Origin: a virus | IMG/VR virus record: IMGVR_UViG_3300021961_000677 | Location: 1 to 22,934 of that record | DNA: 22,934 nucleotides | Reading direction: 5' to 3' (one strand) | In this document: positions 1 to 9,886 of the stretch, in pieces | Position numbering within the stretch: the stretch's first letter is position 1 | How the letters are laid out: each line of letters begins with the position of its first letter | Made by a program: the position numbers and the translations under genes | Notes under the pieces: model-generated | Databases searched by the model: none | Told to the model about the DNA's origin: nothing | Seen by the model: the letters and a program-made list of their open reading frames with translations, nothing else

Positions 1-141
1 AACATGACGCAAGTACACCTCGCCCGCAAGATTGGGATGTCCGAAAGGTCGATCCGATACTATGAACAAGGCGGTCGATCCGTCCCGGCTCCGGTCTCTA
101 TCCTCTTAGAGACGTTTCTAGGGGGTCTGGAGCGTGCCTAG
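1..141 (+). CDS. XRE-like helix-turn-helix regulator, C-terminal part (5' end off window)
   Basis: The frame is open from base 1 to a TAG at 139-141. The visible residues read as the second half of a Cro/C1-type DNA-binding fold: an LARKIGMS turn, then a recognition helix with SERSIRYYEQG, then a short C-terminal tail. The spacing of LA..IG.S...I..YE is that of XRE-family repressors. An ATG at bases 4-6 could make it a complete 45-residue protein, but the fold would then lack its first helix, so truncation by the window edge is more likely. It lies 88 bases upstream of the small terminase gene on the same strand. A role as a phage repressor or Cro-like regulator is inferred. Confidence 0.6.
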   Translation, partial: NMTQVHLARKIGMSERSIRYYEQGGRSVPAPVSILLETFLGGLERA

Positions 142-229
142 CTACAATCGGGATAGTTACCTAGCAATTACCCTATATGCCTCTCTATGGGCTTTATACG
201 GGCTTATAGAACTATATAAAGGATAAGAC

Positions 230-763
230 ATGGCCGGACATATTAAACGGCGCACGATTGCGTCAAACTTGGACAAGGTTGGCGAGACCGTCTTGCTGGA
301 AAAGATTGCATCCGGCATGACAATGGCTGGCCTTGCTCGTGAACTGAACATCAGCAACCTATCGCTCTATCATTGGATACGCAAAGACCCAGACCGAGAA
401 GAACGATTCAGACAGGCTCGGACAATCGCGGCGGATCAATGGGCGGATGAGTGCCTCGACATTGCCGACGCCTCGGACAGTGTATCGGCTAACGCTGACA
501 GGCTTAAGATCGAAACGCGCAAATGGTTGGCGGGGGTTACTGCTCCGGATAAGTTCCAAGCCAAGCCGACCGCAGCGGTCCAAGTCAACGTGAACCAACT
601 TCACCTTGATGCACTGCGCCAGCTAAACTTGGCGTCATCAAATCCTCATGACCAAATCGAGCATATCGAGGAAGAGATCACCATAGACATCACCCCACCC
701 AAGCAAGTCGGCTCTCATAACCTCGATGCGGACGACTTGCCGGGTGTGTTTGACGAAGATTAA
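230..763 (+). CDS. terS: Terminase small subunit, Sf6 gp1-like
   Basis: This 177-residue protein should recognise the packaging site and load the large terminase. Residues 20-52 form a helix-turn-helix (MTMAGLARELNIS followed by LYHWIRKDP). Residues 60-110 match the Sf6-type core: a helix with ARTIAADQWADECLDIAD, then NADRLKIETRKWLAGVTAPDKF. That R.K.E.RKW...P.KF pattern is characteristic of the family. The acidic C-terminal tail (ending DDLPGVFDED) is plausible for contact with the large subunit. The start is supported by AAAGGA six bases before the ATG. No large terminase gene follows: the next gene is convergent, so the usual terS-terL pair is broken here. The family call is strong; the gene name follows from it. 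Confidence 0.8.
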   Translation: MAGHIKRRTIASNLDKVGETVLLEKIASGMTMAGLARELNISNLSLYHWIRKDPDREERFRQARTIAADQWADECLDIADASDSVSANADRLKIETRKWLAGVTAPDKFQAKPTAAVQVNVNQLHLDALRQLNLASSNPHDQIEHIEEEITIDITPPKQVGSHNLDADDLPGVFDED

Positions 764-775
764 CGGAAAACTGCC

Positions 776-1060
776 ATCCGTGCACGGTTTGAGAGGGTCC
801 GTGCACGGTTCGGGCCGGGTTTGGGGCCGGGTTTAAGCACGCATTTCCGCCAATGTGCACGGAGTGCACGGTTTGTCGGCGCATTAGTCCCCATAAATAA
901 GTAACAGTGTAATATGACACTTCTAACACTGTTACTTACGTGAGAGCGGATTAACTTTTTTAAACCCGGCACTCCGTGCACATCCTTAGATTTCCGCCAT
1001 TTTATCTGGCCCTAAACCGTGCACCAACCATGCACGGACCCTCTCAAACCGTGCACGGAT
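776..1060. repeat. 285-bp concentric imperfect palindrome with GTGCAC repeats
   Basis: Three inverted-repeat pairs share one axis at base 918. The outer pair, 776-805 with 1031-1060, is a perfect 30-bp match. The middle pair, 853-867 with 969-983, is perfect over 15 bp and extends to 874/962 with two mismatches. The inner pair, 898-910 with 926-938, is perfect over 13 bp around a 15-base AT-rich loop. The arms stay in register with no indels. GTGCAC occurs at 780, 801, 855, 864, 976, 1019 and 1051, with a one-base variant at 1030. The flanks are GC-rich and the centre (about 890-965) is AT-rich. The block sits between the convergent terS and DUF3310 genes and no convincing ORF covers it. An origin, terminus or multi-site operator are all possible. 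Confidence 0.9.
898..938. repeat. Central 13-bp hairpin of the palindrome
   Basis: TAAGTAACAGTGT at 898-910 is the exact reverse complement of 926-938, leaving a 15-base loop. It is the innermost element of the palindrome. Either RNA strand could fold here, so it might act as a weak bidirectional terminator between the convergent genes. The T-run on the plus strand (about 954-960) is too far from the stem for a standard intrinsic terminator. Confidence 0.8.
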
Positions 1061-1062
1061 TT

Positions 1063-1087
1063 AAAAAAAGGGAGCCGAAGCCCCCTT
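1063..1087 (-). terminator. Rho-independent terminator of the leftward early operon
   Basis: Read on the minus strand, a GGGGGC/GCTCCC stem (one G-U pair) closes a TTCG tetraloop and is followed by seven T. The C(UUCG)G loop and U-run are the classic intrinsic-terminator form. The stem begins at the stop codon of the DUF3310 gene (1086-1088), so it ends the leftward operon before the palindrome. Confidence 0.9.
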
Positions 1088-1370
1088 AGTCTGCTTTACG
1101 TTCACGTAAACTTATGAGCCGGTCGAGATACCATCGGGCCTTCTTTAAGTCCTCAATCGGCTTCCCCTTCCTCTCATAGCGCCACATATATTTCATGATG
1201 TTGCCCTTGAGGTAGCCAGCAAATGCCTCCGGAGCCATCGACGCTTCGATCCCTTCGATAGCCTCGATGCCTCCGGTCTTATAGTGCGGTGGGCTATTGA
1301 CCACATCGACACTCTGCTCGTTAAGCATATCCCTCACTTCCTTATATCGCATAAAATCATTCCCATACAT
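1086..1370 (-). CDS. DUF3310 protein (T7 gp1.7-related domain)
   Basis: This 94-residue protein consists almost wholly of a DUF3310 domain: VNSPPHYKTGGIEAIEGIEA, then GYLKGNIMKYMWRYERKGK, then DLKKARWYLDRLI. The domain forms the C-terminal part of T7 gp1.7, a nucleotide kinase, and occurs as a stand-alone protein in many phages. A role in nucleotide metabolism is therefore possible but not shown for the short form. The start codon overlaps the stop of the primase gene (TAATG), which suggests translational coupling. Internal ATGs at residues 7 and 15 are alternatives; the latter has AAGGAAG upstream and would begin just before the domain. A strong terminator follows. Confidence 0.8.
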   Translation of the reverse strand: MYGNDFMRYKEVRDMLNEQSVDVVNSPPHYKTGGIEAIEGIEASMAPEAFAGYLKGNIMKYMWRYERKGKPIEDLKKARWYLDRLISLRERKAD

Positions 1371-3847
1371 TACACATCATCCCTATCATCTGCTTTGAAG
1401 TTAATCTCAACGCCAAAGAAATCGTCCGACCCTTCATCGATCATGGCGTTGATGATCATGTGGTCTGCATCGCCAATGAGAAGTTCAAGACCGCGGAACA
1501 CACGCTTCGTTCGTGTCGCCCGGTCCCTTGTGGCATCATAGCCATGCGTCTTCATCTCGCCATTGAACTTACGCTGCGACCACTCCTTGCCCTTGGCTTC
1601 GTTGTTATCCTTGCACCAGTCACGGAAGTCATTGAACGCCTCATTGGTGGTCATCTCATTGTCTTCGCCAGCCACGCAACGCTCCGTGATCCAGCGGGCC
1701 AATGCGTCCTCTCCTGCGAGATACTCATCGGTAGCTTGAATTACGACCTGTGGCGGGTTCAACCCTTCAGCCATCCATGCCTTCGCGCCTTCGATAATCC
1801 ACGCCAAGATGGCTGGATATTCTTCTTTTAGCTTGTCGGGCAGGTCCATATCCTTACGAACTGGTTTGGTGTCGAAGGGTATGAGGTGCATACGACGCCG
1901 CATAGCGTCATCCACATTAGTTATCTCTGGCTTCGTATTGCCTGCAATAACCAACGTGAACTGCGGCTCGAACTCAAACAAATCCTGACGCATGAAACGC
2001 GCACTGATCTTGTCCCCGCCAGTCAGCGACTTGACCTTGGCTTCGTCCCACCTGCGCGACGGGTCGATTTCCTGCGCGTGAACGAGCCTTGCGCCCATCA
2101 ACGACGCCAACTCTGTAGGGTGACGCTGATTGTTCGACGCCAAGAACACGTCCGCACTGGCCACGGTGGCATAATCGCCAAGGATGTTGCCTATCGCACC
2201 AAGGAACGTCCCTTTGCCATTGCCCCCGGACCCGTGGGCGAAGGCGAGTACATGCTCCTTCGTACTACCCGTAGCCGAATAGCCAGCCAACCTTTGAAGG
2301 TAAGAGATCATCTCGCTATCACCGTTGCACGCCTCATTAAGGAACGCCTGCCATTGCGGGGCTGGCTTGCTGAAGTCCGCCTCGACCGATGTGCATTTTG
2401 TGCACATGCGAGAACGGTCATGGGGGAGCAATGCCCCCGTCTTCAGGTCTACCATCCCCGACCGGGTGTTGAGGATATAGATGTCCGCGTCTAGCTGTTC
2501 CGTCGTGGCCTGCATGGACGGCTCGACTGCCGCCAGCTTCGCTACGTTTGCAATCACATTGTACGACGCCACACGCTGCGCGATCCGCTCACCCTTTTGC
2601 GGGCTGTCAATGTGCTGCAATGCTTCAGCCGACGCATTCGCGCAGACCTTGCGGACGATGGACAGGTGCTTGTTCGCCACGTCCTTGGCCCACTTGTTAC
2701 CATCCCATGCGACCCAGCCCATGCCGCCCACAACGTATCGTATATCCGAAACGTGTAGCCGAGCAACGCGCTGCGCCAATGCAATGTCGCTGTACTCAAT
2801 CGGTGTTTCGCCCGCAGACGCTACCATGCCGAAGTCTTCATCGCTGAAGTCCGTCACATCGAACTCATCGACCTCGCGTTTGTAGCCAAAGGTCGCAGCC
2901 TTACCCGCCAGCCAGTCCCAGCCCAACTCATAGGGCGGGTGCATACGACCGAAGTCTGCTTCGATAGTATCGAGCGAGTTAACGCCGTCTTCCCAACGCT
3001 CGGCCCAGCCTGCGAATATCTCGAACGCATCCGGCTCATGGTCTGGGCCACACGCCGCCTTGATGGCGTAGCCCATGCGGATATAGTCATCGCGGTCAGG
3101 GAAATGCTCGGTCTTATTCGGGATGGCCGCTACCGCAGCCGCTACATGGGTAATGCTTGGCGCGGTGAGCGACGCCTGATCGACGGACTGCCGCTCGACT
3201 GCCTTCTGCGCCGTCTTATCCGCGTGGATAATCTCGCAGCCCATCATCTCCAACGTCTCCGTCAGATCGGCGAAGAACTGCTCAATCTTTTCCCGCGTTA
3301 CCTTCTTCAAGCCAGCCGGGCCACGTGCCTCCAAGTCCACATCAAGACTGTACGGTTCCTTAGTGATAGGATGGATACCGCCGATGACGTACTGCTGCCC
3401 GTCACCTAGAAATTCTACAAGCTGCTCGACGCCCCGGTCATCGCGGAACCGCACCTGCATCCGGCCAATCTTTTCATCGGTGCGATACATGAACAGCCGC
3501 TTGGGGAAACGACCGATACGCATAGGGGCTTTGCCCAATGCCTTCACCGCCATATCACCAATGACCCTAGCCAGCCCCTCGTTGACAACATCAATGTCAA
3601 CCGCAGGATATTTGCTTGCCTTCAAGCCGATATTAGCATGGCTGCGGTCCCACCTTTCCACATCGTTAGATGTTGGCACATAGTCCTGCCAGCCGTAGCC
3701 GCCCCATGTGCCCTGTGCATTCTGCCGACCGGGTGCTTTGCCTGCCTGATCCGCTTGGATTTTAGACATGGCCGACAACTCGGCGTTCGGCGGGATGACG
3801 GACACGAGATCGGTGAACCCAATCTCATACAGTGTCTTAAATTTCAT
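1370..3847 (-). CDS. Primase-helicase: Prim-Pol domain plus D5/P4-type SF3 helicase
   Basis: This 825-residue protein should prime and unwind DNA at the replication fork. The N-terminal part looks like an archaeo-eukaryotic-type primase/polymerase: a DxD pair at D84/D86 (YPAVDIDVV), E145, and the GGIHP motif with H159. A PriCT-like linker follows at about 232-316 (DRDDYIRMGYAIK, then ELGWDWLAGKA). The C-terminal half is a superfamily 3 helicase with a D5_N-like region from about 370, Walker A GSGGNGKGT (539-547, K545), Walker B around LVHAQEID (588-595), sensor 1 AGNTKPE, and arginines in DDAMRRRMH as finger candidates. The length is typical of such fusions. It starts on a TAATG overlap with the upstream small gene and has GGGAG eight bases before the ATG. 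Confidence 0.92.
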   Translation of the reverse strand: MKFKTLYEIGFTDLVSVIPPNAELSAMSKIQADQAGKAPGRQNAQGTWGGYGWQDYVPTSNDVERWDRSHANIGLKASKYPAVDIDVVNEGLARVIGDMAVKALGKAPMRIGRFPKRLFMYRTDEKIGRMQVRFRDDRGVEQLVEFLGDGQQYVIGGIHPITKEPYSLDVDLEARGPAGLKKVTREKIEQFFADLTETLEMMGCEIIHADKTAQKAVERQSVDQASLTAPSITHVAAAVAAIPNKTEHFPDRDDYIRMGYAIKAACGPDHEPDAFEIFAGWAERWEDGVNSLDTIEADFGRMHPPYELGWDWLAGKAATFGYKREVDEFDVTDFSDEDFGMVASAGETPIEYSDIALAQRVARLHVSDIRYVVGGMGWVAWDGNKWAKDVANKHLSIVRKVCANASAEALQHIDSPQKGERIAQRVASYNVIANVAKLAAVEPSMQATTEQLDADIYILNTRSGMVDLKTGALLPHDRSRMCTKCTSVEADFSKPAPQWQAFLNEACNGDSEMISYLQRLAGYSATGSTKEHVLAFAHGSGGNGKGTFLGAIGNILGDYATVASADVFLASNNQRHPTELASLMGARLVHAQEIDPSRRWDEAKVKSLTGGDKISARFMRQDLFEFEPQFTLVIAGNTKPEITNVDDAMRRRMHLIPFDTKPVRKDMDLPDKLKEEYPAILAWIIEGAKAWMAEGLNPPQVVIQATDEYLAGEDALARWITERCVAGEDNEMTTNEAFNDFRDWCKDNNEAKGKEWSQRKFNGEMKTHGYDATRDRATRTKRVFRGLELLIGDADHMIINAMIDEGSDDFFGVEINFKADDRDDV

Positions 3848-4639: not shown

Positions 4640-4791
4640 TTCAAATGATCTCCTTCTGCAATCCGATCCGCCAGCCAACGTGTGTTGCGCTCGAACATGT
4701 TCATCTTGCCAGTGCGAAGCCAAGCAATGATGGCATCCTTCTCGTTGACGACAGGCGGTTTCTCTTCATTAGTTTTTGTTGGACGTGTCAT
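4636..4791 (-). CDS. Small 51-residue hypothetical protein
   Basis: This short gene reads MTRPTKTNEEKPPVV, then NEKDAIIAWLRTGKM, then FERNTRWLADRIAEGDHLK. Its ATG forms a TAATG overlap with the stop of the upstream regulator gene and has AAGGAG at eight to nine bases. Its TGA overlaps the next ATG. Without it a 150-base gap would break an otherwise continuous operon, so it is very likely a real gene. The charged, helical composition gives no function. Confidence 0.7.
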   Translation of the reverse strand: MTRPTKTNEEKPPVVNEKDAIIAWLRTGKMNMFERNTRWLADRIAEGDHLK

Positions 4792-5561
4792 TAGATTAAC
4801 TCCTTAACCTTAAATCCTTTTGCTTCAGCGTAGGCGATGAGGTCGTCGAGCCACATGATGCCTTTGCCTGAAACAAAATACTGATTGATGCCCCGAAAGG
4901 GTACATTCTTTATGTCGCCCCATGTGTGCGACGACTGCTCATACATCTTTATATCTGCACGGTGGACCGATGGATGAGTCCGGCGCAGAAAGTTAGCTGC
5001 TTCAGCCGCAATCAATTTCGTGTGGCCGGAGAACTCACGCCGAGCAACTGGCTCATCTCCTTTGACTTCAGCCGGAACAAACCTATCCGTTTTCGCGTAC
5101 CATTCCGCCTTTGGTATAGAGGCAATACCTGTTTCCTTAAGCCAGCCCTTAACCGTTCTACGGTCACTGCCGTATAAACGCATAAGCGCAGCGCAGGTCA
5201 TAGTCGGGGCCATCGTGCGAAAGTTATCTGGCACGGCCTTCTTCCTTCCGCTTGAACTGACAAGGACTTCCGTAAGTTTAAGTTCGTCCATCCAACGAAG
5301 GACCACCGACCTAATCCGGCCATAATGTTTAACGAGTTGCGTTACGTTCATGGTCCTTGCCATCTCCCTTAGATCATCTGGCGGTGGCGATTTGTGCGAA
5401 ACGAACTCTCGCTTCAGCCCTATCTTTCTACGCCGCGTATCAACGGCGTCGGCAGAACGGCCAAGCACCTCTCCAATCTGCGGGTACGTCAGATTTTTAT
5501 GGTAAAGTTCTGTGAGAATAGCGTCCTCTTCAGGTCGCCACGGGGTAAAACTCTTGGACAT
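4791..5561 (-). CDS. Multi-repeat helix-turn-helix protein, Myb/GcrA-like N-terminus
   Basis: This is probably a DNA-binding regulator at the head of the leftward early operon. Residues 8-49 form a Myb/SANT or GcrA-like module (WRPEEDAILTELY, YPQIGEVLGRSADAV, TRRRKIGLK). Two further copies of a second HTH-like unit follow at about 60-96 and 110-146; both run PD..R.MA.TM....L...YG...R.V..W. The last 100 residues, including WGDIKNVPFRGINQYF and IMWLDDLIAYAEAKGF, are not recognised. The start at 5559-5561 has GAGG at six bases. The frame is open to a GTG at 5640-5642, which would add 27 residues, and an ATG at 5571-5573 is also possible. It is divergent from the polymerase gene. Confidence 0.7.
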   Translation of the reverse strand: MSKSFTPWRPEEDAILTELYHKNLTYPQIGEVLGRSADAVDTRRRKIGLKREFVSHKSPPPDDLREMARTMNVTQLVKHYGRIRSVVLRWMDELKLTEVLVSSSGRKKAVPDNFRTMAPTMTCAALMRLYGSDRRTVKGWLKETGIASIPKAEWYAKTDRFVPAEVKGDEPVARREFSGHTKLIAAEAANFLRRTHPSVHRADIKMYEQSSHTWGDIKNVPFRGINQYFVSGKGIMWLDDLIAYAEAKGFKVKELI

Positions 5562-5705
5562 AATCTCCCTCATTTGTTTGTTGCCTCTCTTGGGTGGCAC
5601 AGGTTCAATATCGAATGCAAGAACTTTTTTTGTTGACGACACTATGCGACTTGTGCCAGCTATATGGAAAGCAAACGTGACGCCGACGAAAAAGAGGGAA
5701 CGAGT
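5562..5705. promoter_or_regulatory. Divergent early control region (inferred)
   Basis: The leftward primase operon and the rightward polymerase operon both begin here, so promoters in both directions are expected. The region includes an A/T tract near 5624-5631 and a TTGACG at 5633-5638, but no well-spaced -10 partner is visible. If the leftward gene starts at the GTG at 5642, the gap shrinks to about 60 bases. The call rests on gene layout rather than on a clear motif. Confidence 0.35.
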
Positions 5706-7613
5706 ATGGTAGTATCGGTAGACTTCGAGACGCGCAGCGCCGTCGATCTCCGTAAGACGGGCGTCTATAAGTACGCCGCTGACCCATCAACCGACATCTG
5801 GTGCATGGCCTACAAGGCTCCGTGGTCTGACGACGTGCTGGTATGGCAGCCGGGCGATGAGGTAGATGCCCACCTCGAAGATTGGATCAGGGCGGGCGGG
5901 TTGCTGTCGGCATGGAACGCCAACTTCGAACGCACAATCTGGAACAATATCATGACCGGTCGCTATCAGTGGCCAGACACCCGCATCAATCAATGGCGCT
6001 GCACGATGGCGCAGGCCAGCGCGATGGGACTGCCCCGCGCACTAGGCCAAGCTGCTGCCGTCCTTGGCGTTGAAGAACAGAAAGATAAGACCGGCGCGGC
6101 CCTTATGCTCCGGATGGCACGGCCACGTAAGGTGAACGCCGACGGTAGCTACACATGGTGGGACACAAAGGACAAACTCGATACGCTAGTAGCGTATTGC
6201 CGACAGGACGTGCGAACGGAACTGTCCGTCGCGGAAGTCCTGAACGAAATGCCTGACAGTGAGCGTCGTCTGTATCAGCTTGACCAACGCATCAACGACC
6301 GGGGCGTTAAGGTTGACCGTGACCTGATTGAACGGGTTAGCAAACTTGCTAACTCCGCATCGGAGAACATCGACGCAGAGATCAAGCGCCTTACGAACGG
6401 CCAAGTCAAAGCAGCAACGAACGCAATGGACTTAACCGCGTGGCTTCGTGGCTATGGGTTAAACGTAAACTCTGTGGACAAGCAGACCGTGACTCGGATG
6501 CTGAGCGTTGATGGGCTGCACCCCATCATCAAGCAAGTGTTGAAGCTACGCCAAGACGGAGCCAAGTCCAGCACCGCTAAGTATGATGCAATGCTTAACG
6601 CCGCAGACGCCGACGACCGTATGCGTGGCCTGCTTATGTATCATGGCGCGGCAACGGGCCGGTGGTCTGGTCGGCTTGTGCAACCACAAAACTTTCCTCG
6701 GCCCTTAAAAAAGAACGATGAACTTGAAACAATCATCGCAAAGCTAAAGGCCGACGAAGATGTATCAGAGCATGGCGCAGGGACAGTTATTGCCTCTGAC
6801 TTGCTCCGGTCTATGCTGATCGCCGAGGATGGCCATCGGCTTATGTTTGCCGACTACTCGGCGATTGAGGCCCGCGTGTTGGCGTGGGTAGCAGGACAGA
6901 ACGATCTCGTTGAGACGTTCCGAAAGGGGGGAGACGTGTACAAAGATATGGCATCCGCTATCTACAACAAGTCTGTTGACGCAATCAGCGACAACGAACG
7001 CCAAGTTGGTAAGATGGCAATCTTGGGTTGCGGCTACGGCATGGGGGGCAAACGCTTCGCCGAGCAGTGCGCCACAATGGGCATCAAGGTAGACGAGGAC
7101 GAAGCCAAGCGCATCGTGTCGGTCTATCGTGAGAAGAACAATCGGATCGCGCAATACTGGCGTGATGTCGAACAAGACTTTGTAGATATGGTAAAGGAAG
7201 CGGGCCGTGTTAGGTCGGTCGAACTTCCTCTACCTAGCGGGCGGTCGCTTACGTACCACAATCCGCGCATCATTCAGCGAGAGACGCCTTGGGGGGCAAT
7301 GCGTGACACCGCGCAAGTCGATACGCTGAATAGTGTGACCCGTCAGTGGGTGTCACAGATTATATGGGGTGGTCTGTTGACGGAGAACGTGGTGCAAGCG
7401 ACTGCCCGCGACATGATGGCCACGGCCATGATGGCGTTGGAAGTCAAGGGCTACAATGTCATCCTGTCCGTACACGATGAAATCATTAGCGAAGTGCCAG
7501 ATAATTTTGGGTCGCTTGACGAAATGATTGACATCATGACACGAGTTCCGGCATGGGCGGAAGGCTGCCCAATCAACGCCGAGGGCAAAGAAGGGAAGAG
7601 GTATCGCAAATGA
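5706..7613 (+). CDS. DNA polymerase, family A, with 3'-5' exonuclease domain
   Basis: This 635-residue replicative polymerase carries all expected catalytic motifs. The proofreading exonuclease has Exo I VDFET (D6, E8), Exo II NANFE (71-75) and Exo III YCRQD (Y164, D168). The polymerase domain has motif A FADYSAIEAR (D383), motif B RQVGKMAILGCGYGMG (432-447) and motif C SVHDE (588-592). No 5'-nuclease domain is present, as in T7-like phage enzymes. The reading frame opens at 5664, but the ATG at 5706 is preferred because AGAGGG lies upstream at good spacing and the exonuclease motif follows directly. The stop overlaps the next start (ATGA). Confidence 0.93.
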   Translation: MVVSVDFETRSAVDLRKTGVYKYAADPSTDIWCMAYKAPWSDDVLVWQPGDEVDAHLEDWIRAGGLLSAWNANFERTIWNNIMTGRYQWPDTRINQWRCTMAQASAMGLPRALGQAAAVLGVEEQKDKTGAALMLRMARPRKVNADGSYTWWDTKDKLDTLVAYCRQDVRTELSVAEVLNEMPDSERRLYQLDQRINDRGVKVDRDLIERVSKLANSASENIDAEIKRLTNGQVKAATNAMDLTAWLRGYGLNVNSVDKQTVTRMLSVDGLHPIIKQVLKLRQDGAKSSTAKYDAMLNAADADDRMRGLLMYHGAATGRWSGRLVQPQNFPRPLKKNDELETIIAKLKADEDVSEHGAGTVIASDLLRSMLIAEDGHRLMFADYSAIEARVLAWVAGQNDLVETFRKGGDVYKDMASAIYNKSVDAISDNERQVGKMAILGCGYGMGGKRFAEQCATMGIKVDEDEAKRIVSVYREKNNRIAQYWRDVEQDFVDMVKEAGRVRSVELPLPSGRSLTYHNPRIIQRETPWGAMRDTAQVDTLNSVTRQWVSQIIWGGLLTENVVQATARDMMATAMMALEVKGYNVILSVHDEIISEVPDNFGSLDEMIDIMTRVPAWAEGCPINAEGKEGKRYRK

Positions 7614-9385: not shown

Positions 9386-9886
9386 ATGGAAAGTTTAATT
9401 AAGGCGCATGATGCACGTAAATATTTAGACTATGACCCAGCCACAGGTGAGATGCGCTGGAAGATTTGGCCGCGCACTGGACGCCCTAGTGGGCGTGAAA
9501 TCCTAACGACAAACGCGCAAGGCTATCGTGTAGTTACGCTTATGGGTAGGCAGTACCGCGTACATCGCGTAGCTTGGCTCATGATGTACGGCAAATGGCC
9601 GTCTGAACTTCTCGACCACGCCAACGGTAAGCGCACGGACAACCGCCTAGTAAATCTACGCGAGGCCAACCGCGCTGAGAACAACCGCAATCGGGGCATG
9701 AACCGAAACAACACGACAGGCTTTAAGGGCGTGACGTACAACAAAGACCGCAAGAAATGGCAGGCTAAGATTTACCGCAACAACAAGGCGATACACCTTG
9801 GTCGGTTTGCGTCTGCGCAGCAAGCCTTCGCGGCGTACTGTAAAGCCAGCCGCGAACACCACGGTGAGTTTCGACGGCTAGTCTAA
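9386..9886 (+). CDS. HNH endonuclease with C-terminal AP2 domain (homing type)
   Basis: This 166-residue protein joins an HNH nuclease fold to an AP2 DNA-binding domain. Residues 50-100 hold the HNH elements: YRVHRVAWLMMYGKWP, then LLDHANGKRTDNRLVNLREA, with D77/H78, N80, N86 and N90 as metal or catalytic candidates. Residues 111-160 are AP2-like (TGFKGVTYNKDRKKWQAKI, then LGRFASAQQAFAAY). GGGAGG lies six bases before the ATG. Such free-standing genes are usually selfish insertions between phage genes. It ends with a nine-base tail-to-tail overlap with the SNF2 gene. Confidence 0.87.
   Translation: MESLIKAHDARKYLDYDPATGEMRWKIWPRTGRPSGREILTTNAQGYRVVTLMGRQYRVHRVAWLMMYGKWPSELLDHANGKRTDNRLVNLREANRAENNRNRGMNRNNTTGFKGVTYNKDRKKWQAKIYRNNKAIHLGRFASAQQAFAAYCKASREHHGEFRRLV

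Follow-up and report, generated by a model that had tools for sequence, protein, structure and literature searches.

The palindromic element at positions 776–1060 is very probably the replication origin of the phage, bound by an initiator helicase of the P4/SaPI type whose gene lies at 1370–3847. The window, meaning the whole 22,934-nucleotide stretch analysed here (a 22.9-kb IMG/VR fragment), comes from an uncultured bacterial virus and contains the element in a single copy. The element carries a conserved array of short repeats (iterons) that occupy fixed symmetric positions in helical phase, and the sequence class of these iterons covaries with winged-helix residues of the primase-helicase. 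This covariation, together with the spacing kept in relatives, supports the replication-origin reading put forward in the initial annotation. Binding by the primase-helicase is suggested by these sequence comparisons, while the role of the element as an origin, the number of rings, the melting step and the direction of replication are proposed by analogy with the P4, SaPI and SCCmec initiators.

Symmetry and iteron layout of the element

The element fills the gap between the stop codons of two convergent genes, beside terS and downstream of the primase operon, in agreement with its initial placement. The features of this region are as follows.

230–763, plus strand: terS, terminase small subunit of the Sf6 type (PF20901, phrog_1482), ending 13 bp from the block
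776–1060, no strand: whole putative origin, a concentric dyad with its axis at base 918 and arms 776–917 and 919–1060
780–787, plus strand: iteron L6, 138 bp from the axis, GTGCACGG
801–808, plus strand: iteron L5, 117 bp from the axis, GTGCACGG
812–819, plus strand: iteron L4, 106 bp from the axis, GGGCCGGG
824–831, plus strand: iteron L3, 94 bp from the axis, GGGCCGGG
855–862, plus strand: iteron L2, 63 bp from the axis, GTGCACGG
864–871, plus strand: iteron L1, 54 bp from the axis and 9 bp from L2, GTGCACGG
876–965, no strand: AT-rich core (63% AT), the presumed DNA-unwinding element
898–910, plus strand: left half of the 13-bp core inverted repeat, TAAGTAACAGTGT, core type 1 of the relatives
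926–938, minus strand: right half of the 13-bp core inverted repeat, pairing with 898–910
965–972, minus strand: iteron R1, 54 bp from the axis, GTGCCGGG
974–981, minus strand: iteron R2, 63 bp from the axis, GTGCACGG
1005–1012, minus strand: iteron R3, 94 bp from the axis, GGGCCAGA
1017–1024, minus strand: iteron R4, 106 bp from the axis, GTGCACGG
1028–1035, minus strand: iteron R5, 117 bp from the axis, GTGCATGG
1049–1056, minus strand: iteron R6, 138 bp from the axis, GTGCACGG
1061–1086, minus strand: hairpin and T run resembling an intrinsic terminator, read by eye (GGGGGCTTCGGCTCCCTTTTTTT on the minus strand), ending the primase/DUF3310 transcript
1086–1370, minus strand: DUF3310 gene (PF11753), between the initiator gene and the array
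1370–3847, minus strand: primase-helicase, 825 aa, the proposed initiator (D5_N, DUF5906, P4 family TIGR01613)
1526–1651, minus strand: winged-helix part of the primase-helicase, codons 733–774, with specificity residues 733, 735, 762, 763, 772 and 774 (MI up to 0.90)

Pairing about base 918 extends over 96 of the 142 arm positions, and a scan of every axis of the window returned this dyad as the best, compared with 57–61 pairs in six block-shuffled windows. The folding energy of the palindrome is likewise far from that of shuffled sequences (z = −15). The coordinates and axis initially assigned to the palindrome thus stand, as do its perfect repeat blocks of 30 nt at the outer ends, 15 nt at about 855–869 and 967–981, and 13 nt in the core. 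The AT-rich core is equally evident: positions 876–965 are 63% AT and positions 892–940 are 69% AT, compared with 41% in the outer arms, which provides the AT-rich region that adjoins the repeats of an iteron-type origin. The seven GTGCAC motifs described earlier do lie within 776–1060, but the repeated unit is a longer, degenerate iteron in 12 copies, of which seven read GTGCAC; the hexamer as such is not enriched, with 10 occurrences in the window against 7.9 expected. Each arm has six iterons, which face the opposite way to those of the other arm and lie at mirrored distances from the axis.

Known RNA families gave no match in positions 1–3000 of the window, and no tRNA was found. A transposable element (MITE) was considered and rejected because the record holds one copy only and the place of the element is conserved in all relatives.

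A DNA search against 50,697 phage records gave chance matches only, and relatives were therefore sought through the primase, a single scan yielding 80 viral contigs. The loci counted, 64 with the window included, are those that span DUF3310 to terS and in which axis and class could be scored. Conservation in related phages had been proposed as a check on the origin reading, and the concentric block, with its spacing, is kept in the DUF3310–terS gap of all 64. Exactly 6+6 iterons were scored in at least 50 of them, most others being one scored site short. The iterons fall into class T, G[TG]GC[AC]NGGTTT (GTGC/GGGCC), and class S, GGGAC[GA][GC]NT (GGGAC), which occupies sites identical to those of class T. 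Relatives therefore hold the blocks and the spacing while the motif changes, which bears out the earlier argument that a fixed register signals function and provides the short repeats in conserved register that characterise iteron-type origins.

Two unrelated core types occur among the relatives. With core type 1, the iterons start 54, 63/64, 94–96, 106, 117/118 and 138 bp from the axis on both arms; with core type 2, they start at 58, 66, 76, 121, 142 and 152/162 bp. At 10.5 bp per turn, helical phase has a coherence of 0.95 (p about 0.002), and for core type 2 the coherence is 0.82 (p about 0.025). Core type shows no covariation with phage proteins near the strength seen for the iterons, a comparison made without a permutation test that doubles as a negative control for the iteron covariation; this behaviour fits a melting element or a host-factor site.

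Several features of the relatives were recorded alongside. In core-type-2 loci (L003, L018, L026, L064 and others) the interval from DUF3310 to the origin is longer by several hundred bases and seemingly contains small genes. Several contigs among L008, L019, L030, L035–L037, L057 and L059 stop inside DUF3310 or near the array, a pattern that assembly breaks at the palindrome and at variable flanks would produce. In relatives G001–G024, TerS and TerL lie several kb apart on opposite strands. A prophage and host search in 85,000 genomes found no relative.

Covariation between the iterons and the primase-helicase

The proposed initiator belongs to a recognisable helicase family. It matches TIGR01613 ("phage/plasmid primase, P4 family") with 307 bits against a cut-off of 108.7, and an SF3 helicase domain of the P4/SaPI5 initiator type is indicated by TIGR01613, D5_N, DUF5906 and a fold match to 7OLA. 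The helicase half matches the folds of ASFV C962R and SaPI5 Rep (7OLA), and the best fold matches of the helicase and winged-helix half together are ASFV C962R and the poxvirus D5/E5 primase-helicases, which are relatives in fold and sequence only and serve to place the fold. With the Pox_D5 profile, the window protein scores 17.1, below the cut-off of 21.4, and 16 of 38 relatives match, the best at 2e-9. A C-terminal winged-helix domain is predicted; AlphaFold2 models, in which this region has a pLDDT of about 85 from a small alignment, place residues 733/735 at a helix N-end; the recognition helix carries 762/763 and the wing carries 772/774. For the winged helix taken by itself, the best matches are C962R and RFX winged helices, at weak E-values (0.008 at best), and the 50 fold matches listed do not include the solved origin-binding domain of P4.

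The reader of the iterons was sought with an association test in which alignment columns of each neighbouring protein were compared with iteron class by MI and labels were permuted; L058, whose contig ends before the array, was left out of the class counts. Residues 733, 735, 762, 763, 772 and 774 of the primase-helicase respond, and positions 762 and 774 reach an MI of 0.90, the full class entropy, against a permuted-label maximum of at most 0.24. Class T is accompanied by N762 and R774 in 41/41 loci and class S by T/I/V762 and K774 in 19/19, a correspondence that holds in 60/60 relatives. The signal is confined to the specificity codons: third codon positions elsewhere in the primase have a mean MI of 0.02–0.05 per segment and are high only at or beside those codons. 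DUF3310, an internal negative control because it is encoded between the primase-helicase and the array, stays within the permuted range (maximum MI 0.19), and so do the HTH protein, the D5-like regulator, PolA and two small proteins. Repeats read by the phage's own initiator, a further property of iteron-type origins, are thus indicated by covariation, and recognition of the iterons by the C-terminal winged helix of the primase-helicase is supported at the level of sequence.

At least 14 independent switches of class agree with this association. On a tree of primase codons 1–700, class changes 16 times, against a shuffled-label mean of 16.2, and the residues follow class in all 14 independent pairs on supported branches (sign test, p = 1.2e-4). 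On a tree of codons 725–800, a single change splits the classes, and once the six specificity codons are removed, 10 changes are needed. The primases of L025 (T762/K774) and L062 (N762/R774) are identical over more than 1.3 kb, but the two loci have different alleles and different arrays. The codon 725–800 trees and this pair indicate that small patches move by recombination with matched pairs kept; the class alleles have therefore partly spread by recombination, and not every switch is an independent mutation. L025/L062 and L003/L006 are examples of natural matched pairs.

A held-out group from a second scan, with primases about 73% identical to the query, follows the same code, although several of its contigs are near-identical and overcount independent cases. 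The combination S762 and K774 (L131, L132, L137, L138, L141) accompanies GGGAC in a 6+6 array, and N762 and R774 (L134, L140, L142, L143) accompany GTGC, again 6+6 where the array is complete. A previously unseen pair, S762 and R774 (L135), accompanies a third motif, GCGGACGCTTA. The scorable held-out arrays all fit except that of L144, in which a T-type initiator stands beside a GGGAC array; because its primase shows 100% identity to T-type relatives and this match ends partway through DUF3310, L144 is likely an assembly chimera or a fresh recombinant. In L133 (5218–5344), all that is left of the array is two outer iterons abutting terS, through either natural deletion or assembly collapse at the palindrome, and its class could not be scored.

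Beyond this group, different 9-bp iterons follow directly after the primase genes of four distant phages with the same primase type, as direct pairs or triplets facing inverted copies across a core.

AcaML1: iteron just 3′ of the primase gene, CTGACGGGT
Acinetobacter phage 4316: iteron just 3′ of the primase gene, AGTGACGTT
MacnCheese: iteron just 3′ of the primase gene, GGCACAGAT
Bordetella BIP-1: iteron just 3′ of the primase gene, TTTGCCTCG, with 2+2 inverted copies forming the reported "stem"

Automatic motif calling succeeded in the Acinetobacter-like family and not in most of the AcaML1-like family. Most members of the 4316-like family have 2+2 copies at near-constant spacing with varied motifs, and in this Acinetobacter family AGTGAC iterons go with R, and AGTGGC/AGTGGA iterons with K, at the position aligned to 774.

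Putative initiation mechanism and competing explanations

In the proposed mechanism, the C-terminal winged helix of the primase-helicase would bind every iteron in double-stranded form, with recognition-helix residues 762/763 and wing residues 772/774 deciding which iteron is read. The six in-phase iterons of each arm, lying on one helix face, would gather one initiator assembly, perhaps a hexamer, per arm, and the two opposed assemblies would flank the AT-rich core. Melting of this core would follow, with the rings unwinding DNA away from it, the primase-helicase itself priming and phage PolA extending the primers, giving bidirectional replication. The initial annotation had also named a GC-skew switch at base 918 as a possible signature; none is clear, and in three 38-kb relatives cumulative skew tracks gene direction.

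An improbable variant of this arrangement keeps the primase-helicase bound to the array and assigns the array to copy control or helicase recruitment, in the manner of crr, with the melting origin elsewhere. P4 has an origin plus a separate crr, both with the same repeats, a precedent that gives this variant some footing, and covariation identifies the reader and not the event. The three 38-kb relatives, however, have a single iteron cluster per genome, the array has an AT-rich core of its own, and the distant relatives have inverted iterons round a core in an equivalent place.

Somewhat less probable still is a stem-loop (cruciform) origin, in which the palindrome would work by extruding hairpins, as proposed for pRN1 and BIP-1 (PMC4234260). 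The predicted hairpin is very stable, gene context and protein type are alike, and pRN1 replication requires an intact stem-loop (PMC4234260). Nevertheless, complementarity of the arms is high at the iterons and low across much of the spacers, iterons at mirror sites often differ (GTGC against GGGCC), and the BIP-1 "stem" itself consists of 2+2 inverted TTTGCCTCG iterons. Arm pairing is not conserved as such, as judged without a formal count of compensatory changes, and the cruciform is disfavoured because pairing is kept at the iterons and not across the spacers.

The readings entertained earlier as alternatives, namely a packaging site, a regulator array and a telomere-like site, fare badly. 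A packaging site (pac/cos) read by TerS is very unlikely. The terS gene adjoins the block in all relatives, and TerS shows a weak association with iteron class at position 145 of its tail (maximum MI 0.31 against a permuted top of 0.24). This signal falls far below the 0.90 of the primase and does not amount to covariation of motif with TerS; it lies in a variable tail encoded beside the array, as linkage would give. Moreover, other phage families have inverted iterons without an adjoining terS, and long contigs continue across the site without ending. There is even less to commend an operator array for a dimeric regulator, whether an HTH protein or the D5-like regulator (4791–5642): the units are repeated and near-palindromic and HTH genes lie close by, but the block sits between convergent genes with nothing to promote, and neither protein covaries with the motif. 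A hairpin telomere or its resolution site (telRL), suggested by the perfect concentric dyad blocks, is highly improbable, since more than 60 contigs cross the block to terS and the block is internal in 38-kb contigs, which places no end at the axis in any of these, and neither the iteron positions nor the helicase covariation would be expected of it.

Separate observations concern other genes of the window and its relatives. The PolA gene of the window (5664–7613) is without an insertion, and an insertion after residue 456 is present in L005, L016, L025, L032 and L071, with the gene cut off there in L045 and L059. In L032 the insertion is 828 bp long and in frame, with intein-like ends by eye, and in another frame it resembles an HNH endonuclease by eye (DRIDNDAGYQPGNLRFITRSDN); neither the first frame searched against Pfam and NCBIfam nor the second searched against NCBIfam gave a profile match. 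Positions 9386–9886 of the window hold a homing-endonuclease gene of the HNH_3 and AP2-like kind, after the gene for an Enc34-type ssDNA-binding protein.

Relation to known initiators and implications

Iterons read by a self-loading helicase of the D5_N/P4 type downstream of its gene are a known kind of origin. According to Ubeda et al., as cited in PMC7581432, SaPI Rep is an initiator helicase that loads itself and uses its C-terminal domain to recognise iterons lying immediately 3′ of its own gene. The window element shares with SaPI Rep/ori the initiator type and the iterons 3′ of the gene, and 7OLA matches the modelled helicase half; unlike SaPI, the window phage has its own DNA polymerase and a DUF3310 gene between initiator and origin, and its array is strictly 6+6 and mirrored, with another iteron sequence and exchanged specificity alleles. 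SCCmec Cch2 is likewise a D5_N-type helicase with short iterons downstream of its gene, bound by its C-terminal domain at a putative origin (PMC7581432). The Cch2 origin differs from the window in that the three AAGTG iterons reported are direct repeats without a mirror array (PMC7581432).

P4 alpha binds its origin repeats through a winged helix and carries a Toprim primase (PMC4234260). The window protein resembles it in matching TIGR01613 far over the cut-off, whereas the Toprim primase is a property of P4, and the repeats and layout also differ. In pRN1 and BIP-1, as in the window, a large inverted repeat lies 3′ of the gene for an SF3 primase-helicase that carries a winged helix at its C-terminus (PMC4234260). 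That work proposed a stem-loop origin with two hexameric rings, the binding motifs being unidentified there (PMC4234260); in contrast, the motifs of the window can be put forward as candidate duplex iterons. A search of the literature, which lacked most papers behind subscription, the primary ones on SaPI origins among them, found neither the strict 6+6 mirror layout nor a specificity code at the level of residues nor the repeatedly exchanged types; within that scope, the 6+6 mirror layout and the exchanged specificity alleles are new.

A broader reading, offered tentatively and perhaps somewhat short of an even chance, is that origin specificity is a trans-lineage polymorphism in which at least two and probably three types (GTGC, GGGAC and GCGGAC) are swapped as small recombination patches. 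Frequent exchange of such patches would account for the random spread of type over the primase tree. If true, this spread fits an advantage of rare types, for example if they were spared interference with their replication by co-infecting relatives or by satellites with the same iterons.

In most phages with D5_N/SF3 primase-helicases the origin has yet to be mapped, and here comparison alone points to the origin, its reader and the reading residues. The same comparison explains the BIP-1 "stem-loop" origin as inverted iterons and suggests a rule for other phages, namely to seek inverted 9-bp iterons just 3′ of the primase gene. The natural matched pairs would suit study of a six-residue specificity switch and of the loading of two opposed rings.
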